Source: an uncultured Selenomonadales bacterium (GTDB taxonomy: Bacteria; Bacillota; Negativicutes; Selenomonadales; Selenomonadaceae). Taken from it: a stretch of 43,805 bases of DNA. A program made the position numbers and the translations under genes. How positions within the stretch are numbered: the first letter of the stretch is position 1; every line of letters starts with the position of its first letter. This document shows positions 13,076 through 35,119 of the stretch, piece by piece. The stretch spans positions 1 to 43,805 of the forward strand of contig CAMJRX010000020.1 in assembly GCA_946408355.1 (NCBI GenBank), in the 5' to 3' direction. Under the pieces are notes generated by a model, which saw only the letters and a list, made by a program, of their open reading frames with translations, was not told the DNA's origin and ran no database searches.

Positions 13076-14284
13076 TTAGCCTTCCGCTTTAAAATTGTAA
13101 ACGGGTTTCATAACGTCGATAATGTCAACAGTGTCGCCAATAACGTCAATAATATCGTCAAGCGACTTGTAAGCTTGCGGGCTTTCATCGAGCGTTCCCT
13201 CGCTGATTGAGGTCGTGTAAATGCCCGCCATAGAATTTTTATATTCGTCCATGTTGAGCTGTTCTTTAGCCTCTGAACGCGACATGATACGCCCTGCGCC
13301 GTGCGGAGCCGAAAAGTTCCAATCAGCATTTCCCTTGCCGATTGCCAAAACGGAGCCGTCGCGCATATTTATCGGGATTAAAACTTTTTCGTCCTTATGA
13401 GCGGCGATTGCGCCCTTGCGAATAATTAATTCTTCCACGTCAATATAGTTGTGCGTCGTATGAAAAGCTTCGCTGTAAGAAATGCCCGCTTTGCCGAGCA
13501 AAATTTTCGCGATAAGTTCACGATTGCACCGCGCAAATTCCTGGCAAAGTTCCATGTCGTGTAAGTACTGATAAAAATATTTTCCGTAGACGTAGCACAA
13601 ATCTTCCGGCATTGACGCCTGCTTGCCGCGATATTCTTTTTCCAATTCCTTAAGTTTCGATTGAATTTCTTTCTTGCGTCCAAGTGACTTGTAAACGGCG
13701 ATAATATTTTCCTTTTGCTCAAAAAATTTATCCTTGCCCTTAGCCAAATCAATCGCGAGCCGCTGATAAATTTCTGCGACCTGCTTGCCTAAGTTCCTAC
13801 TGCCCGTGTGAATCACCAGATAAAAAGTTCCGTCACTTGCACGGTCAATTTCGATAAAGTGATTGCCGCCGCCGAGCGTGCCCAAACTCTTTTCAATGCG
13901 GCGCGTCTCTTTTAGCGAGCGATAACAATTTAGCTCCGTCAAGTCAAATTTTTCCTGCCGGAAGTCCCAAACATTTCTGCGCGACGGAATATAATGCGCC
14001 GCCTCGTCGATTTTTTCAAAGTCAAGCGAATCAGTTTCAAGCTTAACGGTGTACATGCCGCAACCGATGTCGACGCCGACGATATTCGGAACCGCCTTAT
14101 CCGTCACGGTCATAGTTGTGCCGATTGTGCAACTTTTGCCGGCGTGCACGTCAGGCATAATGCGGATTTTGCTGTCTTGGGTAAATTCATAGTTACACAT
14201 GCGGCGAATTTGTTCGCGAGCCGAGTCTTCAATAATTTTCGCAAAAGAAATCGCCGTGTTGAACTTGCCCCTAATCTCTTCCAT
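13076..14284 (-). CDS. rtcB: RNA ligase RtcB
   Basis: The 402-residue protein joins 2',3'-cyclic-phosphate (or 3'-phosphate) RNA ends to 5'-OH ends using GTP and Mn2+. Landmarks are the metal-binding VGVDIGCGMYTV (about residue 70-81), LGGGNHFIEID, HTTHNYID, the guanylation-site His in FSAPHGAGRIMSRSEA, and DESPQAYKSLDDII at the end. The start ATG 14284 lies after AAGGTGACAGTTATC; a GTG four codons earlier overlaps that site. No archease is next to it. Its leader is partly duplicated at 15352-15417, beyond a two-gene insert. Confidence 0.95.
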   Translation of the reverse strand: MEEIRGKFNTAISFAKIIEDSAREQIRRMCNYEFTQDSKIRIMPDVHAGKSCTIGTTMTVTDKAVPNIVGVDIGCGMYTVKLETDSLDFEKIDEAAHYIPSRRNVWDFRQEKFDLTELNCYRSLKETRRIEKSLGTLGGGNHFIEIDRASDGTFYLVIHTGSRNLGKQVAEIYQRLAIDLAKGKDKFFEQKENIIAVYKSLGRKKEIQSKLKELEKEYRGKQASMPEDLCYVYGKYFYQYLHDMELCQEFARCNRELIAKILLGKAGISYSEAFHTTHNYIDVEELIIRKGAIAAHKDEKVLIPINMRDGSVLAIGKGNADWNFSAPHGAGRIMSRSEAKEQLNMDEYKNSMAGIYTTSISEGTLDESPQAYKSLDDIIDVIGDTVDIIDVMKPVYNFKAEG

Positions 14285-14293
14285 GATAACTGT

Positions 14294-14360
14294 CACCTTT
14301 CAAAAATTTTCGTGCAGCCGCGTTTAAAAATAATAAAGGAGCCTGCCGTTTTTGGCAAGC
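14294..14360. repeat. rtcB leader, copy 1 of a diverged duplication
   Basis: Reading the minus strand, this leader (GCTTGCCAAAAA ... CTTTATTATTT ... CGGCTGCACGAAA ... GAAAGG) matches 15352-15417 at roughly three quarters of positions, in the same order and orientation. The two copies flank the genes at 14392-15343. Confidence 0.7.
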
Positions 14361-14363
14361 TCC
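14338..14363 (-). terminator. Terminator after the 14392-14745 gene
   Basis: GGAGCTTGCC and GGCAGGCTCC form a stem around AAAAAC, followed on the minus strand by TTTATTATTTTT. It separates the insert genes from rtcB. Confidence 0.7.
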
Positions 14364-14391
14364 CGAAAAAATTTTTCAGCCGTATTGATTG

Positions 14392-14745
14392 TTATTTAGA
14401 GAAAAACCAGTAAATCATTCCAATGAAACTTATTAAAGCTAATGCGCTGGAAATATTCTCTCCTGCTACTCTTAATGCTTGTGCTTCATCAAATGACATT
14501 TCGCCTTTACGAACACTTTTTACCAAAGAAACGATGCCGCATTCAAAAAAAAGATATTGAAAAAGTAAAAGGTCATACCACCACGGAAGACCAAAATAAA
14601 TCGGAGTAATCATCCAAATTATCGCAATAATAAAATCACCTTTAGTAAACAAAAAAATAATCTGCACCGCAAGATAATATAATGCCCAGCGTATATCAAA
14701 AATAACGGCGAGGATAATTACCGGCATAAGTCCAAAAGGATTCAT
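14392..14745 (-). CDS. Small multi-pass membrane protein, unknown
   Basis: This 117-residue protein has about four hydrophobic segments (VIILAVIFDIRWALYYLAVQ, IIAIIWMITPIYFG, WYDLLLFQYLFF and, after a polar helix SVRKGEMSFDEAQALRVAGE, a C-terminal ALALISFIGMIYWFF). No family is recognised. The start is ATG at 14745 with AAGGAG. It lies downstream of the HTH-protein gene in the same direction, and both lie between the two copies of the rtcB leader, so they probably arrived together. Confidence 0.65.
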   Translation of the reverse strand: MNPFGLMPVIILAVIFDIRWALYYLAVQIIFLFTKGDFIIAIIWMITPIYFGLPWWYDLLLFQYLFFECGIVSLVKSVRKGEMSFDEAQALRVAGENISSALALISFIGMIYWFFSK

Positions 14746-14833
14746 GAGAACAATCTCCTTCCGAATTGATAAAATTTTTTATTTTAACTTACCACAACTC
14801 GTCAGAGAATTGGTCTCTTTTAAAGCGACATTT

Positions 14834-15343
14834 TTAATCACCTAAAGTTTTAAAGCCGAAATGGTCGAGCACTTCATTTATCAAAAACAAATCGTAAATC
14901 CGATTCTCAATAAAATAACCAATAATGACATCTTCCTTACTGCCCGCCGTCAAATGATAGCCCGCGCGATTCAATAAGCTTAAAGTTTCTTTGCGATCCA
15001 ATTCAAGAGCAATCGCCAAAACTGTCCGCTTGCTAGGCGTATAATTTTTTTCGTTGCGAATCTTGGAAAAAATTCTTCTGTCAAGATGTGCCTTCTTATA
15101 AACTTCAACATCTGTCATATTTTTTTCATCAATTAGTTTCCAAAGATAATCTGAAAAATAATTGCCCGTCATGCCAATCATATCTTTAAGCTTGCGGATT
15201 ATTTTTTCGGCAGTTCCAATTTCATCTTTAGCCGCACTACCGCCGTAAGAGAACTTAACTCCGCGTTTACGTAACGCCTCAAAGTCAATGAAATTTTTGT
15301 CGATATAATTTTTTATTTGCTGAAGAATTTCGGTGTTTATCAA
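14834..15343 (-). CDS. HTH (XRE-like) DNA-binding domain protein, unknown
   Basis: The start TTG 15343 follows GAGAGG, giving 169 residues; frames further upstream run into the duplicated leader. The N-terminal third is a short charged helical region (INTEILQQIKNYIDKNF). Residues about 75-130 form a helix-turn-helix-like domain, FSDYLWKLIDEKNMTDVEVY then AHLDRRIFSKIRNEKNYTPS, followed by LAIALELDRKETLSLLNRAG. Such domains occur at the C-termini of varied accessory proteins in Firmicutes. It could be a regulator of the linked membrane protein, which is an inference. Confidence 0.65.
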   Translation of the reverse strand: MINTEILQQIKNYIDKNFIDFEALRKRGVKFSYGGSAAKDEIGTAEKIIRKLKDMIGMTGNYFSDYLWKLIDEKNMTDVEVYKKAHLDRRIFSKIRNEKNYTPSKRTVLAIALELDRKETLSLLNRAGYHLTAGSKEDVIIGYFIENRIYDLFLINEVLDHFGFKTLGD

Positions 15344-15351
15344 AAAAATTT

Positions 15352-15417
15352 TCCTCTCAAAAAATTTCGTGTAGCCGAGTGTAGAAATAATAAAGAAACC
15401 CTCAACTTTTAGCAAGC
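15352..15417. repeat. rtcB leader, copy 2
   Basis: Second, diverged copy of the rtcB leader (14294-14360), now in front of the HTH gene. Shared blocks on the minus strand include GCTTGC, TCTTTATTATTT, CACGAAA and the SD-like GAGAGG. The former terminator stem has lost its pairing. Confidence 0.65.
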
Positions 15418-15418
15418 T

Positions 15419-15446
15419 TTTACAAAGAATCTTCAAGTGATATAAT
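15419..15446 (+). promoter_or_regulatory. Promoter of rnmV
   Basis: TTTACA (15419-15424) and TATAAT (15441-15446) are spaced by 16, with an extended -10 (TGATATAAT). Confidence 0.6.
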
Positions 15447-15476
15447 ATCCGCGAAAAATTTTAAGGAGGAAATTTT

Positions 15477-16046
15477 TTGATTAAAGAAGTTTTGGTAGTC
15501 GAGGGTAAAGCGGACGTTATCGCCGTCAAGCGGGCAGTCGAGGCGGAATGTATAACGACGGGAGGTTTTCATATTACGCGGCGAACATTGGAAAATATCG
15601 CGGCGGCTTATAAGAAATGCGGAATAATTATTTTGACTGACCCTGATTCGGCGGGCGAGAACATTAGAAATTTTTTGTCGAAGAAATTTCCCGAAGCCAA
15701 ACACGCCTACATACCTCGCGACGAGGCAACTGCTAATGACGACGTTGGAGTTGAGCAAGCGTCGCCCGAATCAATCAGAAAAGCTTTGAGCAAAGTCCGC
15801 ACGCTTGAGCTTAATCCTCGCGAAGAATTCACAGCGGCGGAAATGATTAACTTCAAACTTGCGGGCGGCAAAGATAGTTCTAAGTTGCGTGATAAAATCG
15901 GGGCGGCTTTGGGTATTGGTTACGGCAATGTAAAAACTTTTGTGCGGCGGCTGAATAGTTATGGCGTGACCCGCGAAGAATTTCTGGAGGCTGTCGCTTT
16001 AGAAGCGACGGAACAGCGGACGCGATTTACTAATAGAAATTTTTAG
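15477..16046 (+). CDS. rnmV: Ribonuclease M5
   Basis: The 189-residue protein begins with a TOPRIM domain (IKEVLVVEGKADVIAVKRAV, then IIILTDPDSAGENIR) and has the M5 C-terminal region. RNase M5 matures 5S rRNA in Firmicutes. TTG at 15477 follows AAGGAGG. The position just before rsmA is the usual Firmicutes arrangement. Confidence 0.92.
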   Translation: MIKEVLVVEGKADVIAVKRAVEAECITTGGFHITRRTLENIAAAYKKCGIIILTDPDSAGENIRNFLSKKFPEAKHAYIPRDEATANDDVGVEQASPESIRKALSKVRTLELNPREEFTAAEMINFKLAGGKDSSKLRDKIGAALGIGYGNVKTFVRRLNSYGVTREEFLEAVALEATEQRTRFTNRNF

Positions 16047-16090
16047 CCAATCGCCGCGTTTTAAACGTAAACTTTTGGAGGCTTTAGAAA

Positions 16091-16909
16091 ATGTTACACC
16101 CGTTGATAGCTAACCCGTCGGCAACACGGCATATTTTAAAAAATTTTAAATTGCGTGCAGTCAAAGGACTTGGACAAAACTTTTTAATTGACGCGGGCAT
16201 TGTACGCCAAATTGTCGAGGCGGCGGAAATCTGCGCGGGCGAGGAAGTTTTAGAGATAGGCGCGGGCATAGGAACTTTGACGCAAGGATTGCTTGAGGCG
16301 GGCGCGAATGTCACGGCAGTTGAGCTTGATAAAAAATTACCCGCCGTGCTAAAGGAAACACTTGCGGGCTACGAAAATTTTCGGCTCGTCGCGGGCGACA
16401 TTTTAAAAATAAATTTATCGGAGCTCATGCCGCGCAGATTTAAAGTCGTAGCGAATTTGCCATATTACATCACGACGCAAATCTTATTGACGTTGCTGGA
16501 AAAAAATTTGCCGGTAACAAAAATCGTGACGATGGTGCAAAAGGAAGTTGCCGAACGCATGACAGCCGCGCCAGGCTCCAAAATTTACGGCGCATTGTCG
16601 GTTGCAGTTCAATTTCGTTCGGAGGCGCGAATTGCCTTTGAAGTGCCGCCCGAATCTTTTTTGCCGCCGCCCGAAGTTACAAGCGCAGTCGTAGTCTGCA
16701 ACGTTCGTAAGCCGCCCTTTGAAGTAGACGAGGATTTTTTCTTTAAAGTTGTACGCACGGCATTTGCTAAGCGGCGAAAAACTTTGTTGAATTCTTTGGC
16801 GTGCTTTGATAGGGAAAAAATTTTGGCATCTGGCATTGACGGCCAAAGACGCGCTGAAACTTTAAGCTTGGAAGAATTCGCCACGCTTTGTAAATTTTTG
16901 AAAGGTTGA
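16091..16909 (+). CDS. rsmA: 16S rRNA dimethyladenosine transferase (KsgA)
   Basis: The 272-residue Rossmann methyltransferase dimethylates two adjacent adenines near the 3' end of 16S rRNA. Seen are GLGQNFLIDAG near the N-terminus, SAM motif I EIGAGIGTLTQ (about 56-66), the catalytic motif NLPYYITTQ (about 119-127) and the C-terminal helical domain with FAKRRKTLLNSL. ATG at 16091 follows GGAGG. It ends with TGA five bases before a degraded mutS2 fragment, showing where mutS2 once followed. Confidence 0.95.
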   Translation: MLHPLIANPSATRHILKNFKLRAVKGLGQNFLIDAGIVRQIVEAAEICAGEEVLEIGAGIGTLTQGLLEAGANVTAVELDKKLPAVLKETLAGYENFRLVAGDILKINLSELMPRRFKVVANLPYYITTQILLTLLEKNLPVTKIVTMVQKEVAERMTAAPGSKIYGALSVAVQFRSEARIAFEVPPESFLPPPEVTSAVVVCNVRKPPFEVDEDFFFKVVRTAFAKRRKTLLNSLACFDREKILASGIDGQRRAETLSLEEFATLCKFLKG

Positions 16910-16913
16910 TTTA

Positions 16914-17265
16914 ATGATTCAAGACGCATTCAAGCCAGTTGACGACTTCGACACGGTTAAAGAAAATTTATCGTTGACAACGGAGGCGGTAAAAATTTTC
17001 GCGGTAAGTGCGCCACCGCTTTGCGGATTTTGTGACGTTAGCGAGACGTTTAATAAAATTAAAATCAATAGCGTTGCTGATTCAGAGGAACTCCTTGACG
17101 TGATTTCGATGATGTACACCATGCGGCAAGTCAAAATTTTTTTCAGGGAGACGCACGACGGAAATTGAAATTTTGGGTACCCTAGAACGTCAATTAGATA
17201 ACGCCATTGATGAGCACGGCAAAGCCATGATACGGCAAGCATTAAGCTGAAAAAAGTCTTCGGGA
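16914..17265 (+). pseudogene. Degraded 5' fragment of mutS2
   Basis: A frame of 84 codons starting at 16914 matches residues about 35-105 of the intact MutS2 encoded at 18461: DDFDTVKENLSLTTEAVKIF and MYTMRQVKIFF are shared. DNA identity is about four bases in five. After a deletion of about 33 bases near 17155 the match continues out of frame (LERQLDNAIDEHGK region) to about 17265. There is no MutS2 start, ATPase or Smr part. It is a relic left upstream of the transglutaminase-like insert. Confidence 0.85.
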
Positions 17266-17345
17266 ATTGTGTGCAGCAATATTGACAAAAAAACAATTAA
17301 TTTAAAATGCATTCGAATTCTATTAATCATTGGGAGGTGAACATC

Positions 17346-18351
17346 ATGCTCAAGAAAGTTTTTGCCGCCGCTATCCTCGCCCTGTTCATGCTGTCTTCGC
17401 AAATCGCTCTCGCCGCCAACAACTACTACGACTGGAACAAAGTCAAGCAAATCAGTAGCAAATCGGAATTGGCGCATTATCTCGAAAGTCAAAGTCAGGC
17501 AGAGCAAACCGTCATTCACGTCGTACTCACCAACGGTTTGAGCATAAATATTTACGAAGCTATCAACATCTGTCCGGGCTCCAGACTTATGCAGGAAATT
17601 GTCTCCGGCGACGGACAGACCACGTTGATTGTTTACACGCTCAAGGAATATCCGGGCACACGCGTCGCCAATGCTTATCTCAGCGGCGATACGGGTTGAC
17701 TTTCGCAGGACGAGATGAAACTTTACAAGGTATCAAAAGAAATCGCCGACAAGATAAACAAAGCTGACGAAAAAGAGAGTCCCACCGCAATGAGCATCTA
17801 CTTTGAAATCATGAATCGTGCGACCTATGTTTCGGGAGACATGAGTAATCAGCCGCGTTTCGTCACCGCAATTGGTGCGCTCCTCGACGGTAAGGCGAAC
17901 TGTCAGGGTTACAGCGACGCGTTTTACATGCTCGGCAGAATTGGCGGCACGGCGAATGGCGGTCTTCACGAATGGAACACGATTACCTACGGGGACGGAA
18001 AAACCTACTTCATTGATGTAACTGCGGGCGACGATGCGATACAAAAAAATGATGCCTGAAAAAAATTTGTATATATTTACTTCAACCGAGTGTGGACTTC
18101 AGATACTCTTACAGCGGAATTGGAGCGTCAACCTTGCACGAACGACCAACGCGGATGCAGGAATTAACCTCGTTGCCAAAAAACTTGCCGAATGAAGCAA
18201 ATGGTTTTCCGTAATGACGCCACTTGAGGAAAAATATTTCACGAATTCGCAAGACGTTGCCAATTACATTTCAAATCAATCCGGCAAAAATATTTACTTA
18301 AATACTCGTAAGTACGGAAAATACATGTTCTTCACGGCGCATTTGCGCTGA
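17346..18351 (+). pseudogene. Secreted transglutaminase-like protein, multiply interrupted
   Basis: ATG 17346 after GGGAGGTGA opens a signal peptide (MLKKVFAAAILALFMLSSQI ... ALAA). The frame meets TGA at 17697 (GDTG-stop-LSQDEMKLY) and continues in the same frame through a transglutaminase core: Cys in GKANCQGYSDAFYML, His in GGLHEWNTI and Asp in YFIDVTAGDD, so the triad is intact. An apparent extra T at 18057 makes a TGA and shifts the frame; in the shifted frame coding continues (LYIFTSTECGLQILLQRNW) to another TGA at 18193 (KKLAE-stop-SKWF) and ends at 18351. The last part (FTNSQDVANYISNQSGKNI) resembles the N-terminal KSELAHYLESQSQ region. A weak promoter (TTGACA 17282) precedes it. Confidence 0.7.
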
Positions 18352-18373
18352 TTCGCAACGAAAAAATTTTTTT

Positions 18374-18397
18374 CCCGTCACGTTGGCGGGATTTTTT
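18374..18397 (+). terminator. Terminator after the transglutaminase-like gene
   Basis: CCCGTC and GGCGGG form a 6-bp stem (one G-T pair) followed by ATTTTTTATTT, just after the last TGA of the decayed gene. Confidence 0.65.
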
Positions 18398-18404
18398 ATT
18401 TCTG

Positions 18405-18433
18405 TTGACGGGTGATAAGAAGTCATTTACAAT
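18405..18433 (+). promoter_or_regulatory. Promoter of mutS2
   Basis: TTGACG (18405-18410) and TACAAT (18428-18433) are spaced by exactly 17 bases, ending 27 bases before the mutS2 ATG. Confidence 0.65.
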
Positions 18434-18460
18434 TTGAAGAAAAACTTTCGGAGTGATTCA

Positions 18461-20830: not shown

Positions 20831-20835
20831 AAAAA

Positions 20836-20864
20836 CTCCTGCCATTATCGACAGGAATTTTTTT
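20836..20864. terminator. Bidirectional terminator between mutS2 and the LCP gene
   Basis: TCCTG and CAGGA form the stem; T8 follows on the plus strand and A-rich sequence precedes it, so it can serve both converging genes. Confidence 0.7.
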
Positions 20865-21951: not shown

Positions 21952-21969
21952 TATCTCACCTCCCGTCAG

Positions 21970-22500
21970 CTAAAATCTAAGGGAAGTTTTCAGCTTTGTC
22001 AAGTCTATATCTGTTTTTATTTCAGGGTGCTTGCGCAGAAAAAATTGTTCGTCATCGGGCGCGGCGACAAAATTTATCAGCCGTCCGACTTTAACAAAAC
22101 ATTTCCGAACAACTTTATCAATATGCGGGTCGTTAATCGTCAAGCACGCTTTGGAAACGACGGGTTCCTTGCCGCGATTAGCTATAAAATTCAAATGCAA
22201 CTCAACTTGTGGCTCGTCTTCGCTCGAATTGTAATAAACGCCCAAATTATTTTCGACGTATGGATTGAGCACATTGAACAGAACGTCCATTAACATCGAT
22301 AAATCCATTTTCTTTGGATTGAATTCAATTTCGACGCTCGGAATATTTTCCAAAGTTTGCGGCTCGTGATTTACGTAGCTGTGAACGTTCCGCGCAGATA
22401 ATTTCCCGATTAAAACGCTCACGACGCCTGGCACGTCAATAAAAATTTCTTGCAACTCGTTGATGTTGCCGCCGCTGAAGTAAATTTTCTTAGTGTACAT
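21970..22500 (-). CDS. MsrA-like protein lacking the catalytic residues
   Basis: The 176-residue protein (ATG 22500 after AAGGAG) follows the peptide methionine sulfoxide reductase A pattern along its length. KIYFSGGNINELQEIF matches the MsrA motif GGCFWGLExxF, then PGVVSVLIGK, VEIEFNPKKMDLSMLMDVLF (MsrA: V.YDPxxISYExLLxxFW), NPYVENNLGVYY, and near the end FVAAPDDEQFFLRKHPE (MsrA: FYxAEDYHQxYLxKNP). The catalytic Cys is Asn, and the Phe, Trp and Glu of GCFWGxE are Ile, Asn and Gln. It cannot act as a normal MsrA and may be a binding or structural protein. The family assignment is by eye. Confidence 0.6.
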   Translation of the reverse strand: MYTKKIYFSGGNINELQEIFIDVPGVVSVLIGKLSARNVHSYVNHEPQTLENIPSVEIEFNPKKMDLSMLMDVLFNVLNPYVENNLGVYYNSSEDEPQVELHLNFIANRGKEPVVSKACLTINDPHIDKVVRKCFVKVGRLINFVAAPDDEQFFLRKHPEIKTDIDLTKLKTSLRF

Positions 22501-22601
22501 AGTTTTATTCTCCTTAATTCCAGTTGCGAAGATTATACAACGAATACCGCATTTTGCAAACAAAAAAGCCCGCTCCAACTTCGGAACGCGCCAGATAAAA
22601 T

Positions 22602-23026: not shown

Positions 23027-23043
23027 AATTAAATCGTCCTCAT

Positions 23044-24191: not shown

Positions 24192-25280
24192 ATGAAAAAA
24201 GCCGCTTTAAAAGCGGCGGAACAGCTGTCGCGTTCAGCGTTAAAAAGTTTACAGCTAATCGCCGCGCTCAAGAGAGGATTTATTGTGAAAAAATTTTTAA
24301 CTGTGTTGATTATGAGTTTGCTCGTTGCCTCGACGGTTAACGCTGAAATAAAAACTTATGAAGGAGTCGGCGAATATCTCATGAGCGACTTTGAAACTTT
24401 CGACGTGGCTCAACAGCGGGCTAAACAACGCGCCGAACAAAGTGCTTGCGAACAGGCGGGCGTTTACGTTGAGAGCCGCACTGAAGTTATTGACGCACAA
24501 GTTAAGCACGACGAAATTTTAACTATGACTAGCGGCATTTTAAAAATCGTTGACGTGAAGTTTAAGCGTGAATTCGTTGACGACAACACAACGCGGATTC
24601 GTGCGACCGTCAAAGCAAATATCGACAGCGACGACATTAATAAATGGCTCGCTAAAGATAATGGAGAGCGTGCGTCTCTCGTTGAGCAAAATGAACAACT
24701 TCGTCGCGCTAACGCCGAACAGGATAAACAAATCGCCGCACTTAAACAACAACTTGCTGATGTTAAAACTCAACAATACCAAGCCCCAATTACTCAAAAT
24801 TTCGTTACCGAAGATAAAGTTTTTCTTTCCAACAAAAAATATGAGTTAGCTTTGACCTTCTTGGAGAAAGGCGATTATCGTAACGCTGAAGTTTTTTTTG
24901 GCGACGCTATCGAACTGAATCCCAATAACGCCCTTGCTTATGGTGCTCGCGGCACAATGAATTACAATATTGAGGATTACAAAAAAGCTATTGCCGATTT
25001 CAACCGCGCCGCTCAACTCGATCCGAATTGGATTCAAATGTATTTGCTTATCGGCTATTCCTACTACAGTTTGAACAATTACCCTATGGCTATTGCCAAT
25101 TTAAGCAAGGTTATTCATATGGCGACAAATTTTTCCTTTGATAAAAAATACGTCTTAACTGGAAATAAGCTAATGGCGACGGCTTGTTACTATCGCGGAA
25201 TTATGTATCAGGCAATCGGCGACCATGAACGGGCGCGAGCTGACTTCGCTAAGGCGCGTCGATTCGGTTACAACGGCTAA
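24192..25280 (+). CDS. Secreted or periplasmic TPR protein with a repeat-derived N-terminal leader
   Basis: ATG 24192 has a strong GGGAGGTG site. The first 31 codons (KKAALKAAEQLSRS ... LIAALKRG) come from a dispersed repeat. At codon 32 a GTG (24285), with its own AGAGAGGA site, starts a normal signal peptide, MKKFLTVLIMSLLVASTVNA. After it come a region resembling the FlgT N-terminal fold (YEGVGEYLMSDFETFDVAQQ ... ACEQAGVYVESRT), a coiled coil (LVEQNEQLRRANAEQDKQIA) and TPR units (ALTFLEKGDYRNAEVFF, AYGARGTMNYNIEDYKKA, and a final ACYYRGIMYQAIGDHERA). I infer that GTG is the ancestral start and that the module was inserted between duplicated TGAAAAAA ends. The role is unknown; it precedes the LPS fusion gene. 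Confidence 0.7.
   Translation: MKKAALKAAEQLSRSALKSLQLIAALKRGFIVKKFLTVLIMSLLVASTVNAEIKTYEGVGEYLMSDFETFDVAQQRAKQRAEQSACEQAGVYVESRTEVIDAQVKHDEILTMTSGILKIVDVKFKREFVDDNTTRIRATVKANIDSDDINKWLAKDNGERASLVEQNEQLRRANAEQDKQIAALKQQLADVKTQQYQAPITQNFVTEDKVFLSNKKYELALTFLEKGDYRNAEVFFGDAIELNPNNALAYGARGTMNYNIEDYKKAIADFNRAAQLDPNWIQMYLLIGYSYYSLNNYPMAIANLSKVIHMATNFSFDKKYVLTGNKLMATACYYRGIMYQAIGDHERARADFAKARRFGYNG
24201..24273. repeat. Dispersed module, copy A (encodes AALKAAEQLSR)
   Basis: Begins with the near-perfect palindrome GCCGCTTTAAAAGCGGC, then GGAACAGCTGTCGCG, and ends near ATCGCCGCGCTCAAG. The inverted copy B lies at 35003-35076. Here it is in frame with the TPR protein and is flanked by TGAAAAAA on both sides. 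Confidence 0.7.
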
Positions 25281-25306
25281 AAAATTTATAAAGAGGAGCG
25301 CGTTAA

Positions 25307-27796: not shown

Positions 27797-27819
27797 ACTC
27801 TCCAAATTTTGGAAGAGCC
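27785..27819 (-). terminator. Terminator after pcrA
   Basis: On the minus strand GGCTCTTCC and GGAGAGTC pair around AAAATTT, followed by TAATTTTTTTT. It overlaps the end of the converging fusion gene. Confidence 0.7.
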
Positions 27820-27838
27820 AATCGGAAATATTTATAAC

Positions 27839-30079
27839 TTAGATTTTGTTAATGGGTGCGACACTTTTCATAAGTTTTTTTATGCCAATTTCGGGATTCG
27901 CGAAAGACACGGTGACGGTTGAATTATCCGTTGCCATGACAGTACCGAATCCCCATTTTTTATGATTAAGTTGATCTCCGACTTGCCACACGACACGCGA
28001 CGAAGATTTTTTCTCGTTGGGTATCATCTGCGCGGGGCGATAAGCCGTCGGTGGTTTATATGTAGATTTTGGCGGCGAAGAATTTTTTTTAGCAGATCGC
28101 AAAGCACTGCCAGCAAAACAGCTTGGAGGGATTTCCTCGACAAATCGCGAAATTTCTTGCGGTCTCATTTTTCCGAAAAACATTCGCTCTGCCGCCGCCG
28201 TGATATAAAGTTTTTTCTTAGCGCGAGTTAAGGCAACATAACAAGCGCGTCGCTCCTCCTCAAGCTCGGTGTCGTCGTCTCTGTCTAAGGCGTTCGCGTG
28301 CGGGAAAAGTTTTTCTTCCATGCCCACGACGAACACCACAGGGAATTCTAAGCCCTTCGCCGCGTGAACTGTCATAAGCTTGACGCGGGAGTCTTTTTCG
28401 TCCACTGCGTCGAGGTCGGTTATTAAAGCGACGTGATTTAAAAAGTCTTCAAGCGAGGCATTCGGATTTAATTCAACAAACTCTTTCGCGCTGTCGACAA
28501 ACGCCCCCAAATTTTCTTCGCGTGAAATATTTTCCTTCTTGCCGACTTCGGTGGTCTCGTGCAACATTTTTGTATAACCGGATTCGTCAAGCACAGTTGT
28601 TATCAGCTGGTCAATCGAAAGATTATTCGCCGATTCCGTAAAACTCATCATCATTGCCGCAAAATTTTTGACACCTGCGCGGAACCGTGTATTAAGCCCT
28701 TCCACTTGCCCTAAAAGTTTTTGGTCGGCAACGACTTCAAAGATTGAAAGCCCGTGACTTTCCGCAAATTCCATAATTCTAGCGACATTAGTTGAGCCGA
28801 TTCCGCGTGTTGGCACATTGATTATCCGTCTAAGGTGGAGGTCGTCGCGAGGATTGGCGATAACATGCAAATAGGCGACAATGTCTTTTATTTCCTTACG
28901 GTCATAAAATTTCAGCCCGCCGATTATGAGATACGGAATTTCTTCCTGCATAAATTTTTCCTCGAACATGCGCGATTGGGCATTCGTGCGATAGAGCAAT
29001 GCAATTTCGTTGTAAAGAAAATTTTCGCGCTCAACCAGCCGCCTAATTTCACTGGCAACAATCGCCGCCTCTTGTCTGTCATCCTTGCAATGCAGGAATT
29101 TTATTTTTTCGCCGCTCTCGTTTTCTGTCCAAAGTTCTTTAGGCTTGCGGTCAATATTGTTTTCGATAACGGCATTGGCGGCTTGCAAAATAGTTTTCGT
29201 CGAACGATAATTTTGCTCCAAAAAAACGACATGCGCCTTTGGATAATCTCGCTCAAAATTTAAAATGTTGCGCATATCCGCGCCGCGCCACCCGTAAATT
29301 GATTGGTCAGCGTCGCCGACTACGCACAAATTTTTATACTTAGCGGCAAGCAAATTCGTCAACACATATTGCGCAACGTTCGTATCTTGATATTCGTCAA
29401 TTGAAATGTATTGGAACCGCTCTTGATACCTCGCCAACACGTCGGGATAATCTTTAAAAATTTTCACAGTGGCAAAAATCAAGTCGTCAAAGTCCAACGC
29501 ATTATTTTTCCGCAATTTTTTTTGATACAGCTTGTAAACTTCGTAAACGCCGTTGCGATAAAAAGGCGGATAATCGGCAAGAACTTTTAAGCATTTTTCC
29601 GGCTCAATCAAATTGTTCTTAAGGTCGGAGATTTTTAAGTGGATATTGGAGAAAATATTTTCGCCCAAATCCATTTCGGCGGCGCATTGCTTAACAAGAT
29701 TTCTGCTGTCACTCGCGTTGAATATGGCGAAATTTTTATTAAACTGCCCCGTGGTTTCAATTTCCCGCCGCAAAAGTCGAGCGCAAAAAGAATGAAACGT
29801 ACTCAAAATCACGCCCCGTGCAGATTCGCCGATTAATTTTTCTGCGCGGGATTTCATTTCATTAGCCGCTTTATTCGTAAAAGTTATTGCCAAAATGTTG
29901 AAGGGCGAAATTCCCTGCGCGATTAAGTTTGCAATGCGGCAAGTTAAAACTCGCGTTTTGCCGGAGCCAGCCCCCGCCATTATCAAAAGTGGTCCGTCGA
30001 GGCATTCTACTGCCTCTTTTTGTTTAGGATTTAAATCTTTGAAAATTTCTTTCGTATTAAAAAAAAGTTGCTCATTCAA
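27839..30079 (-). CDS. pcrA: ATP-dependent DNA helicase PcrA/UvrD
   Basis: The 746-residue superfamily 1A helicase has the Q motif LNPKQKEAVE, motif I AGAGSGKTRVL (about 35-45), motif II DEYQDTNVAQ, motif III GDADQSIYGWRGAD, motif IV QNYRSTKTIL, motif V VKLMTVHAAKGLEFPVVF and motif VI EERRACYVALTRAKK. The C-terminus (WQVGDQLNHKKWGFGTVM) is the Tudor-like domain typical of PcrA. It acts in repair, replication restart and transcription-coupled repair. ATG 30079 follows GGGGGAT. Confidence 0.95.
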   Translation of the reverse strand: MNEQLFFNTKEIFKDLNPKQKEAVECLDGPLLIMAGAGSGKTRVLTCRIANLIAQGISPFNILAITFTNKAANEMKSRAEKLIGESARGVILSTFHSFCARLLRREIETTGQFNKNFAIFNASDSRNLVKQCAAEMDLGENIFSNIHLKISDLKNNLIEPEKCLKVLADYPPFYRNGVYEVYKLYQKKLRKNNALDFDDLIFATVKIFKDYPDVLARYQERFQYISIDEYQDTNVAQYVLTNLLAAKYKNLCVVGDADQSIYGWRGADMRNILNFERDYPKAHVVFLEQNYRSTKTILQAANAVIENNIDRKPKELWTENESGEKIKFLHCKDDRQEAAIVASEIRRLVERENFLYNEIALLYRTNAQSRMFEEKFMQEEIPYLIIGGLKFYDRKEIKDIVAYLHVIANPRDDLHLRRIINVPTRGIGSTNVARIMEFAESHGLSIFEVVADQKLLGQVEGLNTRFRAGVKNFAAMMMSFTESANNLSIDQLITTVLDESGYTKMLHETTEVGKKENISREENLGAFVDSAKEFVELNPNASLEDFLNHVALITDLDAVDEKDSRVKLMTVHAAKGLEFPVVFVVGMEEKLFPHANALDRDDDTELEEERRACYVALTRAKKKLYITAAAERMFFGKMRPQEISRFVEEIPPSCFAGSALRSAKKNSSPPKSTYKPPTAYRPAQMIPNEKKSSSRVVWQVGDQLNHKKWGFGTVMATDNSTVTVSFANPEIGIKKLMKSVAPINKI

Positions 30080-30093
30080 AAGAGCATCCCCCT

Positions 30094-30127
30094 TGTTAGT
30101 GATTGGTGGTCAGTTGTTAGTAGTTAG
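30094..30127. repeat. TTAGTGATTGGTGG-type degenerate repeat
   Basis: A run of G/T/A-only short units (TTAGTGATTGGTGG, GTTGTTAGTAGTTAG) between pcrA and the ABC transporter. It resembles the inverted tracts at 38269-38331. Confidence 0.5.
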
Positions 30128-30129
30128 AT

Positions 30130-31854
30130 TTACGCGGCGGCATTGGTCGAAAGATTGTAGTAAACGCCGCGTTGTTCCATTAAATTTTCGTGCGTGCCTT
30201 CCTCTGTTATGTTGCCGTGTTCTAAAACTAAAATTCTATTAGAGTTGCGAATCGTAGCCAATCTATGAGCAACAGTTATCGTCGTGCGATTTTCTGAAAG
30301 TTTCTGCATGGCCCGCTGAATTTGGCGTTCCGTCTCGTTATCAAGTGCGCTGGTCGCCTCGTCGAGAATTAAAATTTTCGGATTGCGTAAAAACATTCGG
30401 GCGATTGCAAGGCGTTGTTTCTGCCCGCCGCTAAGTTTGACGCCGCGTTCACCGATAAAAGTATCATAGCCGTTCGGAAGCTCGCTAATAAACTCGTGAG
30501 CCTCTGCAAGCCGCGCCGCCTCAAAAATTTCCTCGTCGGTTGCGTCTTCGCGTCCATAAGCAATATTGTCCTTGACGCTCGCCGAAAACAGAAATGTATC
30601 CTGTTGAATCATGCCAATTTCTTTGCGCAAACTTTCAGTCTTAACGGTTTTAATGTCGCGCCCGTTGATAGAAATTGTCCCGCCGTTGAGGTCGTACATG
30701 CCCAAAAGCAATTCGCACAAAGTAGTTTTGCCGCCGCCCGTCATGCCGACAATCCCTACGTGTTCGCCCGCCGCTATGCTAAGATTAAAATCGTTAAAAA
30801 TCGGCGCGTTATTCTCGTAGCCAAAGTTCACGTGGGAAAATTCAATTTCCGACGCAGTTTCAAGTTTAGCGACACGCTCGGCAGAAAGTTCGCTACTTTC
30901 GGGCAAGTTCATCAGCTCGTGATAACGTTCAACGCCCGCCATGCCCCGTTGATAAACTTCCGTCAACATCATAAGCTGAAAAACCGGTCGCATGCAAAGC
31001 ATCATATACAGCAGGAACGCAACCAAGTCGCTGATTTTCATTAAGCCGAAACTTATCAACGCGCCGCCCAAAATGATTATCGTTAAGTTCATGACGTTAG
31101 AAAAAAAGTCTACACCGCCGTGAAGTTTACCGACCGTGCGAAAAGAATTTTCCTGTACCGACAAAAGATTTTCACCTGCGCGGAGCATTTTATTAAGTTC
31201 CTTATCCTCGTTGCTGAAAATTTTCACGAGGCGAATACCCTGCAAGCTTTCGGAAATTTGCCCGCTCAAGTTGCCGGTATTTTCTCGCGCCTGCATGAAC
31301 ATTTTTTTCATATCGCCGTTGAGCTTGATTGTCGATAAAGTTTTAAAAATCAGCAGAGCCGTTACGACGATTGCCAGTTGCCAATTCAGATAAAACAGCA
31401 ACGCAACCGAGCCGAGCATTGTAATTGAGCAAGTTACAAACAGATGAGGGATTGCGAACATGAGGTTGCCGACTTCCGCAATGTCATTGACGAGCCGCGA
31501 TAAAAGTTGTCCACTTTGCGCGTTGTCGTAGAAGGAATAGCCCATGCGCAGTAAGTGCCGGAAAAGTTTTTCGCGCATTGTGAATTCAATCTTTGCGCCC
31601 ATGCCGCGCCCGACAACTTCAATCTTGTAATTCAAGAAATAATTCGCCGCGTAAATCGTGAGGAGTGCACCCGCCGTCAAAATCATTTCCGTAGAAATGC
31701 CGTGCGGTAAAAGTTCGTCCATGACGTGGCGAATCAGCATAGGCGACAAAAGTCCGAGCCCCGCGCCGATAAGCGACCCAATTACCACGAACGAAAACGC
31801 TTTCTTGTGCGCCGAATAACTTTCCGCAAAAAATTTCAGCCTGTCCTTGACCAT
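30130..31854 (-). CDS. MsbA-like ABC exporter (fused membrane and ATPase domains)
   Basis: The 574-residue half-transporter has a six-helix type I exporter domain (residues 1-320) and an ATPase domain with Walker A VGMTGGGKTTL, Q-loop IGMIQQDTFLFSA, signature LSGGQKQRLAIARM, Walker B ILILDEATSALD and switch His in ITVAHRLATI. It functions as a homodimer. Position near the lipid A fusion suggests a lipid substrate, but the gene follows marR by 27 bases, so a MarR-controlled drug or lipid exporter is equally possible. ATG 31854 follows GGGAGGG. Confidence 0.88.
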   Translation of the reverse strand: MVKDRLKFFAESYSAHKKAFSFVVIGSLIGAGLGLLSPMLIRHVMDELLPHGISTEMILTAGALLTIYAANYFLNYKIEVVGRGMGAKIEFTMREKLFRHLLRMGYSFYDNAQSGQLLSRLVNDIAEVGNLMFAIPHLFVTCSITMLGSVALLFYLNWQLAIVVTALLIFKTLSTIKLNGDMKKMFMQARENTGNLSGQISESLQGIRLVKIFSNEDKELNKMLRAGENLLSVQENSFRTVGKLHGGVDFFSNVMNLTIIILGGALISFGLMKISDLVAFLLYMMLCMRPVFQLMMLTEVYQRGMAGVERYHELMNLPESSELSAERVAKLETASEIEFSHVNFGYENNAPIFNDFNLSIAAGEHVGIVGMTGGGKTTLCELLLGMYDLNGGTISINGRDIKTVKTESLRKEIGMIQQDTFLFSASVKDNIAYGREDATDEEIFEAARLAEAHEFISELPNGYDTFIGERGVKLSGGQKQRLAIARMFLRNPKILILDEATSALDNETERQIQRAMQKLSENRTTITVAHRLATIRNSNRILVLEHGNITEEGTHENLMEQRGVYYNLSTNAAA

Positions 31855-31881
31855 TGCGAATCCCTCCCTGTTAACAAATAC

Positions 31882-32334
31882 TCAATAAAAATCGTCCTCG
31901 TTTTCCCGCTCAATTAATTCAGTAAGTTGCGCCGAAATTTTTTCCAGCGACTTCTTAAAGGCTCTCTTTTCTTCAAAGCTAAAATCAGCAAAAATTTCGT
32001 CGTAATCGGGCTTTTGCACTTGAAATCTTTCGCCTTTATCCGTAAGCTCCACAATAAGTGCCCGCTTATCGGTCGTCGAACGGTGCCGCGTGATGTAGCC
32101 GTTGCTCTCCAACTTCTGCAGAAGCTCGCCCAACGACTGCGGACGAATATCCAAAATAAAGCCGAGTTCTTTTTGGCTAATGCTATTCATGCGCCGCAAT
32201 GCCGTCAAAATTCTTCCTTGCCCCTGTCGAGGATCCAGCCCGCCGAATTTTTTTCCATACCAGATCATGTTGTAGCAACGCAAAAGATGATGCGTCTCAA
32301 GTAAAGCGTTCGTCAAATTATCTTTGCGATCCAT
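31882..32334 (-). CDS. MarR-family transcriptional regulator
   Basis: The 150-residue winged-helix protein has ILTALRRMNSISQKELGFIL, the recognition region RPQSLGELLQKLESNGYITR and the wing RHRSTTDKRALIVELTDKG, typical of MarR. It is the first gene of an operon with the ABC exporter and probably represses it until a ligand binds. ATG 32334 follows AAGGAGG. The palindrome-like TAGGGTACCTTA at 32357-32368 just downstream of its -10 is the likely operator. The same promoter and operator recur upstream of the acetyltransferase. Confidence 0.88.
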   Translation of the reverse strand: MDRKDNLTNALLETHHLLRCYNMIWYGKKFGGLDPRQGQGRILTALRRMNSISQKELGFILDIRPQSLGELLQKLESNGYITRHRSTTDKRALIVELTDKGERFQVQKPDYDEIFADFSFEEKRAFKKSLEKISAQLTELIERENEDDFY

Positions 32335-32443
32335 ATTTAAAGCCTCCTTGATAATCTAGGGTACCTTACGAATTAATTGTATGATACACCGTCCCCTAAA
32401 TTTAATCAATATAAACTCAAAACTTTTAACAAAATTTTAAGTT
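32315..32443. repeat. marR promoter/5'-end duplication, copy 1 (functional marR)
   Basis: About 129 bases covering the first marR codons, ribosome-binding site, operator, promoter and sequence behind the promoter. They match 33503-33626 in the same orientation at about four bases in five, including the run TAAACTCAAAACTTTTAACA. Confidence 0.85.
32357..32409 (-). promoter_or_regulatory. marR promoter with a candidate operator
   Basis: On the minus strand TTGATT (32404-32409) and TATCAT (32381-32386) are spaced by 17. The near-palindrome TAAGGTACCCTA (32357-32368) lies around the start site, where MarR binding would block transcription. Confidence 0.55.
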
Positions 32444-32475
32444 ATTTGCCTTGTAATGATTTCTGTTGTGAAGTT

Positions 32476-32807
32476 TTAAAAAATATCGTCATCAAGCGCG
32501 GAAATAATTTTAACGTTTGTGTTCCAAAGATAATCCAAAGCTTCAAGCGTCGTCATTTCGCGTGTTGTTATAAAGTGCGTACCTTTTCTGAGCGCGGCAG
32601 GAGAGAATAATTTTTCGTGTTTGAATATAAAAATGTTGCTGTCAAAATCAACTGCTTTAACGAGAGAATTTATATTTTCCTCTGTTGCGTCGTTGCCGAG
32701 CCAAATGACGAGCGAAACGTCTTTCAAATCCGTCTGACGAAAATTCTTAACGACATTAGGCCACAGAGGATTCGTAGCGATAAAATCCGGAATAAAATGA
32801 TAAAAAT
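32476..32807 (-). CDS. Out-of-frame C-terminal domain of the acetyltransferase
   Basis: Immediately after the 12-G tract, a frame shifted by one relative to the acetyltransferase reads [20 protein letters not shown] ... [20 protein letters not shown] ... [15 protein letters not shown] and ends LDDDIF. This is protein-like, whereas the current frame gives a low-complexity tail ([14 protein letters not shown]). A tract of 13 or 10 G would fuse it to the acetyltransferase. At present it might still be made by reinitiation at TTG 32727, which overlaps the stop (TTGA). No family is recognised. Confidence 0.6.
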
Positions 32808-33488
32808 CCCCCCCCCCCCGGTATACCTCTCAAGTTGACGACTGAAAGTATCTTCCGGAAAAAATTCAAGTTCGGGCGAATAATTAATTTCCAAAAATTT
32901 TTCAAAATCGTTCATGAGAGGGAAATTGTCGGCAATTTTTTCCAAGTCCCAATTCCACCACTTAACAGCGAGCATTTTTCTAATCGTCTCTTCGTCAAAA
33001 CGATACTTGATAACTCGTGCAGGATTGCCAACAGCGATTGCATAAGGAGGAATGTCCTTTGCTACGACAGAATTTGTACCTACAACCGCGCCATTGCCAA
33101 TCTTGACGCCGCCCATAATCGTTACACCCATCCCAATCCACACGTCGTGCCCGATGATAATTTGACGCGGATTATGTCGAACATTTGGAAGAGGACTAAG
33201 GTTGGGGCGAACTTTATCGAACATTTCTTTGACAACGCCACCTATATCAAGCGGAGAGGTCGAAACAACATTTTTGAGGGGATGATTACCACCTATGAGA
33301 AAAGTAATTCCGCCCGCAAGCGAGCAAAAACGTCCGAACAAAACGTTTGCTTTTGGTTCATGGAAAAATGTAATGTTGCCTCCTCCGTAAGAACCTCTGC
33401 CAGACGTTACAACATTTTCTTCCTTACCAGCAACAGGCTGAAAAAGTTTCTCGTCATTCGGCGAACGTTTAATGTTAAAAGCAGCCAT
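32724..33488 (-). CDS. CatB-related O-acetyltransferase, currently in the short frame
   Basis: The protein is a left-handed beta-helix acetyltransferase of the CatB/xenobiotic type: [20 protein letters not shown] (about 52-71), [20 protein letters not shown] (His is catalytic in the family), [20 protein letters not shown] and [17 protein letters not shown]. Such enzymes acetylate sugars or antibiotics using acetyl-CoA. About residue 224 the tract of four GGG codons is reached; the present frame then ends 27 residues later. ATG 33488 follows TAGGAGG. It sits under a duplicate of the marR promoter and operator. The substrate is unknown. Confidence 0.85.
32808..32819. repeat. Homopolymeric G tract (12 G on the coding strand)
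   Basis: Twelve uninterrupted C on the plus strand, inside the acetyltransferase gene, at the exact point where the coding-like frame changes. Tracts of this length slip readily during replication. Confidence 0.95.
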
Positions 33489-33502
33489 AAGTATTCCTCC
33501 TA

Positions 33503-33626
33503 AAATTATCTTTGCGATTCATATTTAAAGTCTCCTTGATAATAGGGTACCTTATAAATTATATATTACACTACCCCCTAAAGTTAGTCAACATAAACTC
33601 AAAACTTTTAACAGAAATCTAAGATT
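33503..33626. repeat. marR promoter/5'-end duplication, copy 2 (drives the acetyltransferase)
   Basis: Diverged copy of 32315-32443. It keeps the first marR codons (ATG AAT CGC AAA GAT AAT, MNRKDN), which then run into the acetyltransferase ribosome-binding site. Confidence 0.85.
33543..33591 (-). promoter_or_regulatory. Promoter and operator copy upstream of the acetyltransferase
   Basis: TTGACT (33586-33591) and TAATAT (33563-33568) are spaced by 17, and TAAGGTACCCTA (33543-33554) is identical to the marR operator candidate. The acetyltransferase is therefore probably controlled by the same MarR protein. Confidence 0.55.
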
Positions 33627-33638
33627 ATTAACGAAAAC

Positions 33639-33671
33639 AGCCTCCGAAGCTCTGCAAAACTTTGAAGGCTG
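33639..33671 (-). terminator. Terminator after serS
   Basis: On the minus strand AGCCTTCAAAG and the AGGCT-ending arm pair imperfectly, followed by GTTTTCGTT. It separates serS from the acetyltransferase promoter. Confidence 0.55.
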
Positions 33672-33702
33672 AAATATTCTATATTTATTACTGTCAATGA
33701 TT

Positions 33703-34974
33703 TTAAGCGCGAATCTCTTCGACGCCCATGTACGGAATCAAAGCTTTAGGAATTTTAACTGAACCGTCAGCTTGTTGATAATTTTCTAAAATCGCGGCAA
33801 CCGTTCGACCAACTGCAATTCCTGAACCGTTCAAAGTGTGTACGAATTCGGGCTTAGACTTGTTATCGCGGCGGAATTTTATATTGGCACGGCGAGCTTG
33901 ATAATCTGTGCAGTTAGAGCAAGAAGAAATTTCGCGATATTTATTTTGCGCGGGCATCCAAACTTCAATGTCGTAAGTTTTGGCGGAAGTAAAACTCATA
34001 TCGCCGGTACAAAGCAAAACGACGCGATAGGGAATCTCCAAAATGCGCAAAACGTCTTCGGCGGCATTAACCATGCTTTCTAATTCGTTCCAAGAATCCT
34101 CTGGCTTAGTAAATTTAATCAATTCAACTTTGTTAAACTGATGTTGACGAATCAAACCACGAGTGTCACGACCTGCCGCGCCCGCCTCCGCTCTGAAACA
34201 CGCCGTATAGCAAGAATAATATTCCGGAAGAGTTTCAGCAGATAAAATTTCGTCGCGATGAAAATTAGTCATGGGAACTTCAGCAGTTGGCACGAGATAA
34301 TAGTCCAAATTCTCAAGCTTAAACATATCCTCAGCGAATTTGGGCAGTTGACCGGTTCCAATCATGCTGTCACGATTGACAATGTACGGCGCGAGCATTT
34401 CTGTATAACCGTGCTTGTTGGCGTGCAAATCCATCATGAAATTTATACAAGCGCGTTCCAAACGAGCACCCAAGCCGCGATAAAAAGTAAATCTTGCTCC
34501 CGTAACTTTACCTGCGCGGTCGAAGTCGAAAATATTTAACGCGGTGCCAAGTTCCCAATGCGCTTTAGGTTCAAAGTCAAAACTGCGTGGCGTGCCCCAT
34601 TTGCGAATTTCGGGATTTTGAGTGTCGTCTTTGCCAATGGGAACGTCAGCGGCGGGAATGTTCGGAATATGCAAAAGTAAATCGCGCAAATTATTTTCAA
34701 CGTCGCGGAGTTGGGCGTCGAGTTCAGAAATTTTATTGCCCATTTGGCGAACTTCAGCGGAAATTTGGGTTGTATCTTCGCCAGCTTTTTTCATTGCGCC
34801 GATTTTTTTTGAAGTCGAATTGCGTTGGCTTTTAAGTTGCTCCGTTTCAGCTAAAATGGCGCGACGTCTCTGCTCCAAGTCGCTGAAGTCATCGAGGCTC
34901 AAAGGATTGTTGCGATTTTTTAACATTGCGCGAACTAAATCAAGATTGTCACGTACAAATTTCATATCAAGCAA
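33703..34974 (-). CDS. serS: Seryl-tRNA synthetase
   Basis: The 423-residue class II synthetase has the N-terminal coiled-coil arm (about 25-105), motif 2 region [20 protein letters not shown], the serine/ATP site ([12 protein letters not shown]) and motif 3 [20 protein letters not shown]. It charges tRNA-Ser. The chosen start is TTG 34974, nine bases after AGGAG, giving the usual [10 protein letters not shown]; the ATG at 34983 abuts the ribosome-binding site. A second copy of the start region lies at 35080-35119. Confidence 0.95.
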
Positions 34975-35002
34975 GTAAATCATCTCCTAAAAAGTTTTTA
35001 TG

Positions 35003-35076
35003 TTTAAGCGCGGCTATAACCTTGCCGTTACCGTAACATTGAAGCGCGACAACTGTTCCGCCGCTTTTAAAGCGGC
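35003..35076. repeat. Dispersed module, copy B
   Basis: Minus-strand sequence GCCGCTTTAAAAGCGGC, then GGAACAGTTGTCGCGCTTC ... GTTACGGTAAC ... ATAGCCGCGCTTAAA. It matches module A at 24201-24273, nearly identical for the first 33 bases. It can be read as AALKAAEQLSRFNVTVTARL. It lies between the two copies of the serS start region. Confidence 0.75.
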
Positions 35077-35079
35077 TCG

Positions 35080-35119
35080 CGTACAAATTTCATATCAAGC
35101 AAAATAAATCATCTCCAAA
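35080..35119 (-). repeat. Second copy of the serS start region
   Basis: Matches 34952-34991, with 23 identical bases in a row at one end, and includes the ribosome-binding-like GGAGATGATTTA and the codons for LLDMKFV (here interrupted). It is not followed by the rest of serS. Confidence 0.8.

Follow-up and report, generated by a model that had tools for sequence, protein, structure and literature searches.

The locus and its repeated gene starts

We analysed a stretch of 43,805 nucleotides (the window) from an uncultured Selenomonadales bacterium, positions 1 to 43,805 of contig CAMJRX010000020.1 in assembly GCA_946408355.1. At serS, rtcB, mutS2, marR and, in a smaller form, a TPR gene, a diverged copy of the gene's beginning is followed by extra DNA and then by the intact gene. 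These repeated gene starts are real, they are not one phenomenon, and they are not specific to 5' ends. Part of them is explained by a structured repeat of about 69 bp, the module, which lies at the serS and TPR genes and between rnmV and ksgA. We read these module sites as insertions of a short non-autonomous mobile element that duplicates its target, and the gene-bearing cargo sites as separate (import at rtcB and mutS2, an older event at marR), with a probability of about 0.78.

Hereafter, G000 is the window's own genome, G001-G024 are members of its genus, and L-numbers are individual loci. A module site is written U-T-M-T-D, for flank, target, module, target and flank. Modules were located with R1, a covariance model built from 13 module copies, and the significance of each pair of copies was assessed with 1000 dinucleotide shuffles. 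The names rnmV, ksgA, mutS2, U32 peptidase and miaB are presumed, either from an earlier first-pass annotation or from recognition of the proteins; in the rnmV product, Toprim and DUF4093 domains were matched. The module sites of the window are:

35007..35076, minus strand: module upstream of serS (R1 match of 69.5 bits, E 8.8e-26)
35077..35131, minus strand: left copy T1 of 55 bp, with the serS leader, ribosome-binding site (RBS) and first codons (anchored alignment, score 35, 85% identity)
34949..35000, minus strand: right copy T2, the present serS 5' end (alignment and shuffles; single copy in G014 and G017)
24201..24268, plus strand: module at the 5' end of the TPR gene (R1 match of 81.1 bits, E 1.0e-30)
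24192..24200, plus strand: possible left copy ATGAAAAAA at the TPR gene, with its partner GTGAAAAAA at 24285-24293 (read from the sequence)
15993..16060, plus strand: module between rnmV and ksgA, giving rnmV a new C-terminus (R1 match of 80.1 bits, E 2.6e-30; absent in G014 and G015)
15979..15992, plus strand: left duplication copy AATTTCTGGAGGCT, with its partner at 16070-16083 (empty sites and shuffles)

The first-pass annotation of this DNA had named four pairs of copies, at serS, rtcB, mutS2 and marR, and all four stand where it had placed them, with 0 of 1000 shuffles reaching the score in each case. The serS pair is identical at 45 of 49 positions. The smaller form described at the TPR gene holds for the module itself; the flanking repeat is weak taken alone (27 of 1000 shuffles reach its score, and the flanks are not clearly above chance). 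The module between rnmV and ksgA, a site absent from that annotation, is flanked by AATTTCTGGAGGCT and AACTTTTGGAGGCT, a pair whose score is reached by 7 of 1000 shuffles. At the TPR gene, the module stands in frame between ATGAAAAAA and GTGAAAAAA (24192-24293), where it would place 31 extra residues ahead of the signal-peptide-like TPR start.

Target duplication at the module

For the duplication analysis, we kept 31 of the 66 own-genome matches (full-length, above 43 bits, each place once), and from the relatives 67 of 127 matches above 39 bits and 68 of 70 above 36 bits. The resulting 166 matches, from the own genome and ten relatives, gave 165 modules after one was dropped for short flanks; they are the best-scoring modules and not a random sample, and tandem copies within one locus were counted separately.

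In the anchored test, the DNA leading up to the left edge of the module was aligned with the DNA past its right end. Of the 165 modules, 81 scored 12 or more, compared with 8 of 798 control pairs taken across loci and 6 of 421 control places that had been shifted; at 20 or more, the figures were 67 modules, no cross-locus control and one shifted control. Among the 72 modules scoring at least 15, the repeat measures 18-120 bp (median 51.5) and its median identity is 0.90. The last two bases left of the module are C and G at frequencies of 0.71 and 0.69 in these 72, and of 0.51 and 0.53 in all 165. When 98 modules were aligned unanchored, 43 scored at least 15, and the left copy ended exactly at the module in 37 of those 43 and within 3 bp in 42. 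We also tested 14 of 19 partial or weak matches, those whose hairpin is of a second, GTGACG type: 7 of the 14 carry a repeat at a score of at least 14, and the maximum among 56 controls was 12.

Assigned from the lengths of stop-free runs rather than from annotated genes, the gene end inside the duplication is a 5' end in 22 of the 72 modules and a 3' end in 27, with 23 falling in neither class. To the right, 64 of the 72 have an open run of 240 nt or longer; to the left, 37 of the 72 do. Insertion looks polar relative to gene boundaries, and not relative to 5' versus 3'. The first-pass annotation had suggested a process that inserts DNA at gene 5' ends, and had named equally common 5' and 3' fragments as the outcome that would speak against it. 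Run on the module-flanking repeats, this comparison found no excess of duplicated 5' ends over 3' ends, and therefore the 5' specificity falls for the module sites; what survives is a small inserted element with a duplicated target.

Module-free relatives and the import alternative

At serS, G014 and G017 have a single leader, whereas G000 has two with the module between them. Without the module, the rnmV/ksgA site reads ..GAATTTCTGGAGGAATTAAAAATG.. in G014 and ..GAATTTTTGGAGGCTTTGAAAATG.. in G015. At the L024 locus, U stops in L390 52 bp before D, which is the length of T, and L336 is the empty version of the L113/L133 locus. The comparisons for L102, L111, L095 and L294 were not clean, and the remaining orthologues carried modules themselves or aligned poorly at U and decide nothing. 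Because relatives without the module have one copy of T, we interpret these sites as insertions with a long, variable target duplication. We also tried to date the serS insertion from the T1/T2 identity and discarded the attempt, since the stretch is too short for its age to be read.

Homologous import could in principle give the same arrangement: a donor segment with module and gene would recombine into the core gene, its other end would join illegitimately, and the native gene end would remain, all with no transposition. The right-copy leader at L024, unlike the empty site, is in its favour, and it fits rtcB and perhaps mutS2. At the module sites we consider it improbable. In 37 of the 43 strong cases, the end of the left copy coincides with the module's edge, whichever the gene; gene 3' ends are among the repeats; and U-T-D is contiguous in relatives, leaving only M + T to be added. 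Moreover, both serS copies contain GGAGATGATTTA, unlike G014 and G017 (though G018 and G047 are among the relatives with GGAGATGATT). The import joined by homology at one end, which the first-pass annotation had offered as one reading, is thus retained as the likely one for rtcB and less surely for mutS2, and judged improbable for the module sites, given the precise left end and the empty sites.

Module family and structure

In the window's genome, 14 places match the left-end pattern of the module with 3 mismatches or fewer, and 0 match the reversed pattern. R1 gave 31 full-length matches above 40 bits in this genome, plus weaker and partial ones; three modules lie on the window's contig (E up to 1), plus reverse matches of their palindromes. 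Genus members G001-G024 have from 1 to at least 124 matches each at E 0.01, where lone weak matches may be chance, and one sister species carries at least 124. By comparison, 16 genomes from other families gave 0-4 weak matches each. When 84,980 species genomes were scanned for the exact pattern, all 79 stretches (79/79) fell in records titled Selenomonadaceae, Selenomonadales or Quinella, which makes Quinella or a near relative from the rumen the probable host. Carriage by phages was considered and rejected, the exact pattern giving 0 stretches in viral_contigs. Rfam had 0 matches above the gathering score within the window. No long, autonomous version with the same ends was seen among the 14 left-end matches, and no wider search for one was made.

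The consensus opens with a hairpin (GCCGCTTTAAAAGCGGC), continues with GGAACAG and a TCGCG box, passes through an AT-rich middle that varies between copies, and closes with ..TCGCCGCG. In alignment A2, columns 1-7 pair with columns 11-17, and columns 29-32 pair with columns 65-68; the termini are not paired together. In hairpin 1 (104 copies), double changes were observed at five of the seven pairs. Cells altered on both sides numbered 84, compared with 17.5 in shuffles (0 of 500 reach this value) and at most 13 in slid controls, in an alignment that was fitted to the model and is hence biased towards structure. The same body can carry alternative left hairpins (CTACTTTTAAAAAGTAG, GCAACTTTTAAAAAGTTG and GCAACGTGACGTTGC), and partial model matches are mostly copies with another hairpin. 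An extra 3' hairpin starting CCGATACGAAATGC or similar was found in 38 of 158 by a strict pattern that counts near-variants as short. At L043, the usual right end is missing.

Some loci hold more than one module. Two successive modules at L033 (1501-1658), the second apparently inside the 3' extra hairpin of the first, have the form of a nested insertion, and tandem M+T arrays were seen at L096, L108, L109, L139, L151, L294 and L316. At L096, L108, L109, L294 and L316, both modules of the array are equal in bit score, which suggests recent amplification between the duplicated copies of the target.

Insertion model and candidate mobilising enzymes

The element has a fixed left end, a target preference, a variable duplication and empty sites in relatives. 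On this evidence, an ancestral U-T-D has become U-T-M-T-D, where T is the ~14-120 bp to the left of the insertion point, often ending in CG, and relatives have kept U-T-D. Judging from stop-free runs, T would mostly span the edge of the right-hand gene in either orientation; the gene would therefore stay intact, and a 5' or 3' end fragment would be left behind. We envisage that the target would be opened by one nick in each strand, the two being separated by tens of bases, that the element would be joined as a hairpin-bearing strand, and that gap filling would create the long duplication. A trans-acting enzyme would perform the insertion, with template switching plus fill-in as an alternative route.

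Taken on its own, template switching at the replication fork would have a nascent strand leave the gene at a CG-rich place, copy a module located elsewhere and re-anneal upstream, producing T-M-T with no dedicated enzyme. The variable length of the duplication, the CG at the putative switch point, the hairpin-rich module and the tandem M+T arrays at L096, L108, L109, L139 and L151 would suit it, as would the fact that no searched enzyme family occurs in every module-rich genome. We still find it unlikely: the left end is precise, and chance switches predict more truncated modules than we see, where partial matches are mostly other-hairpin copies and L043 is without its right end.

We searched three enzyme families as possible mobilisers, RVT_1, Y1_Tnp (RAYT, the transposase associated with repetitive extragenic palindromic sequences) and DDE_Tnp_1, in genomes that are incomplete. 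RVT_1 gave three matches in G000 and was not found in the module-rich G010, G005 and G014 or in G012 (16 genus members were searched; G016-G024 lay outside this search). Y1_Tnp was not found in G000, G010, G021, G024, G022, G016, G005, G017, G020 or G012, and G014 had a single partial match to it. For DDE_Tnp_1, a Pfam model that may not cover IS1634 transposases, there was no match in the module-bearing G021, G022, G014 and G012. It matched 21 times in G010, 14 in G000, nine each in G016 and G017, and once each in G024, G005 and G020; it was found in none of five module-poor genomes and was present in four others. The G000 matches to DDE_Tnp_1 are often short pieces (on C29, C51, C5, C9 and other contigs), and neither these nor the RVT_1 matches are tied to the module.

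None of the three families, then, occurs in every module-rich genome, and in this sense the remark of the first-pass annotation that no recombinase is visible stands. Given the incomplete assemblies, we take the RVT_1 and Y1_Tnp absences as moderate evidence against these mobilisers. DDE_Tnp_1 was left undecided, as the two genomes richest in it, G010 and G000, both carry modules.

These searches also bear on a route by target-primed reverse transcription, as in short interspersed nuclear elements (SINEs), where an AT-rich first nick would prime on the 3' end of a small structured RNA and a second nick downstream would set the duplication length. A fixed element with a variable duplication and the covariation of the hairpin would agree with it, and so would the end of the body, a G+C-rich stem after which come, in most copies, C/T and then A. 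Nevertheless, such a route is very improbable: RVT_1 was not found in the module-rich G010, G005 and G014 (with G016-G024 outside the search), and the left ends are untruncated.

Several observations weigh against insertion by a mobile element. No mobilising enzyme was found among the three families searched, and absences from incomplete genomes are weak evidence. At a score of 12, 84 of the 165 modules have no duplication, for which decay, duplications too short to score or a different mode of entry are offered as possibilities. The right copy starts 0-87 bp past the module in the 72 modules, so the 3' end of the element is not sharply defined. The two serS copies match each other (46/50) about as well as T2 matches G017 (44/48). 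The right copy of L024 in G000 has a new RBS and ATG that are not in the empty site, which import could also yield. Finally, two of the five covariation measures lie within the shuffles (pairs with double changes, 107 of 500; pair types, 161 of 500).

Cargo loci at rtcB, mutS2 and marR

The cargo sites at rtcB, mutS2 and marR contain no module (model search, E up to 1). Their features are:

14296..14378, minus strand: rtcB leader, copy adjoining rtcB (compared with relatives)
15353..15435, minus strand: rtcB-type leader adjoining rnmV, native-like (85/98 to G014; compared with relatives)
14392..15346, minus strand: rtcB cargo, a 117-aa gene and an HTH_26 gene with a weak hairpin match between them (open reading frames, domain search)
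16914..17225, plus strand: mutS2 fragment, with start codons like G014 and homology resuming at about codon 36 (alignments, shuffles)
17340..18350, plus strand: mutS2 cargo, a broken transglutaminase-like gene (Transglut_core match at E 0.0005, short of the curated cut-off)
33503..33626, minus strand: marR leader plus six codons, upstream copy (shuffles; also in G017, 117/124)
32315..32443, minus strand: marR leader and start, copy adjoining marR (alignment, shuffles)
32476..33488, minus strand: marR cargo, a hexapeptide acetyltransferase with a poly-C tract and no module match (open reading frames, domain search, model search)

At rtcB, the two leaders are identical at 61 of 83 positions, and they match each other less than either matches G014, where rnmV and rtcB are divergent and have one leader: the rtcB-side leader is 70/83 to G014 (and 75/87 to G055), and the rnmV-side leader 85/98. 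In G047, a gene related to the HTH cargo gene (68%) is found some 0.8 kb upstream of rtcB. Most likely, rtcB represents an import from a related species via core-gene homology. In the same region, L185 (G017:C12:78724-81153) has rtcB twice in tandem in place of the HTH cargo, with identities of 95% and 83% to the RtcB of the window. Between the two cargo genes of the window, 14760-14829 (minus strand; L018 268-337) is a weak match of 15.2 bits with the hairpin GTCGCTTTAAAAGAGAC and without the CGCCGCG end; hairpins like CTTTCAAAGAGACC follow the HTH gene in G047 and G010 (L213, L217).

The mutS2 pair is identical at 240 of 290 aligned positions, with a length difference of 29 bp. In G014, mutS2 directly follows ksgA, and in G015 it comes after a short spacer; the start of the G000 fragment resembles both. 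By eye, the intact mutS2 leader resembles G047/G049. The intact coding windows are closest to G017, not G047, and therefore the imported tract, if any, is short. We also assign mutS2 to import from a related species via core-gene homology, less surely than rtcB.

The marR copies are identical at 112 of 126 positions, and G017 has the same duplicated arrangement, its upstream copy matching at 117 of 124; in G014, no second copy was found within 1.5 kb. This locus is best read as an older duplication event common to G017. The acetyltransferase frame, listed as two open reading frames, is crossed at 32809-32820 by some ten consecutive C (read as G on the coding strand), and the same G run is present in G017. 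It looks like a phase-variation tract.

Altogether, the three cargo sites are best read as independent of the module and as having differing histories. The first-pass annotation had considered that one process might insert any cargo at gene 5' ends and rebuild the start. The order of fragment, insert and intact gene is indeed common to the four loci that it named in the window. We rejected a single process as hardly credible: it is not supported by the comparisons with relatives, with cargo sites that lack the module and differ in history, and it is contradicted for the module sites by the counts there, in which duplicated 3' ends are no rarer than 5' ends (27 and 22 of 72, with 23 unassigned).

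Other repeats were noticed in the window. The neighbouring large genes at 35257-38265 and ~38503-41600 share several stretches at 77-84% identity, and the first of them begins like what we take to be a TadE/TadG-type secreted pilus protein. At 42988-43335, there are three copies of a 121-nt repeat, two of which are 79% and 90% identical to the reference copy.

Significance and comparison with known systems

The module provides 72 natural cases of long, variable target duplication within one genus; one end is defined, the target shows a preference, and empty sites are available for some. These cases illustrate how an element can enter housekeeping genes (serS, ksgA) at their edges and leave them working, since a spare gene end comes with the duplication. 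Where the site is a 5' end, the module leaves short open frames and a structured leader before the gene, and modules account for fragments of gene ends that might otherwise pass for pseudogenes or errors of assembly.

We recognised no published description of this repeat in the literature within reach of our search, from which subscription papers were mostly out of reach. In the accessible part of the Quinella genome paper (PMC9585023), the terms transposase, insertion sequence, palindrom, mobile and intergenic do not occur, and 'repeat' occurs once in another sense. The module seems to be a small mobile DNA of a hitherto undescribed type. It is possible, and we say so tentatively, that it belongs to a new class, defined by a hairpin-bearing element of ~70 bases, interchangeable hairpins on one body, polar insertion into gene boundaries at sites ending in CG, by an enzyme or a replication process, and duplications of up to 120 bp. 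If so, the duplications alone would keep the invaded gene whole, making more than 100 copies tolerable per genome, some of them within operons.

Among known systems, IS1549 and IS1634 are reported to generate direct repeats that are long and vary in length (8-514 bp), for which the accessible text of PMC2266710 proposes no mechanistic model. The module likewise makes long variable direct repeats (18-120 bp in the 72 strong cases). However, these insertion sequences belong to a family of 1500-2000 bp with its own transposase (same portion of PMC2266710), whereas the module is ~70 bp and has no gene.

Miniature inverted-repeat transposable elements (MITEs), such as Correia elements, are alike in being short (<500 bp), multi-copy, near genes and bordered by direct repeats from target duplication, and have terminal inverted repeats as a feature, as described in the available part of PMC10969869. 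The termini of the module are unpaired, which sets it apart from elements with terminal inverted repeats, and its duplications are 18-120 bp.

Repetitive extragenic palindromic (REP) sequences and REPINs, with their RAYT (TnpA-REP), share with the module short hairpin repeats, high copy number and a conserved structure. REPs are 20-40 bp and have a GTAG or CGTC tag at one end, according to the accessible part of PMC3733652. The module differs from them in its 69 bp and its long target duplications, and in G000 and the ten relatives sampled, all incomplete genomes, RAYT was represented by one partial Y1_Tnp match, in G014.

Finally, we liken the module by description to the Rickettsia palindromic elements, which can add a peptide to genes (available part of PMC10969869): the module extends rnmV and lies in frame with the TPR open reading frame.

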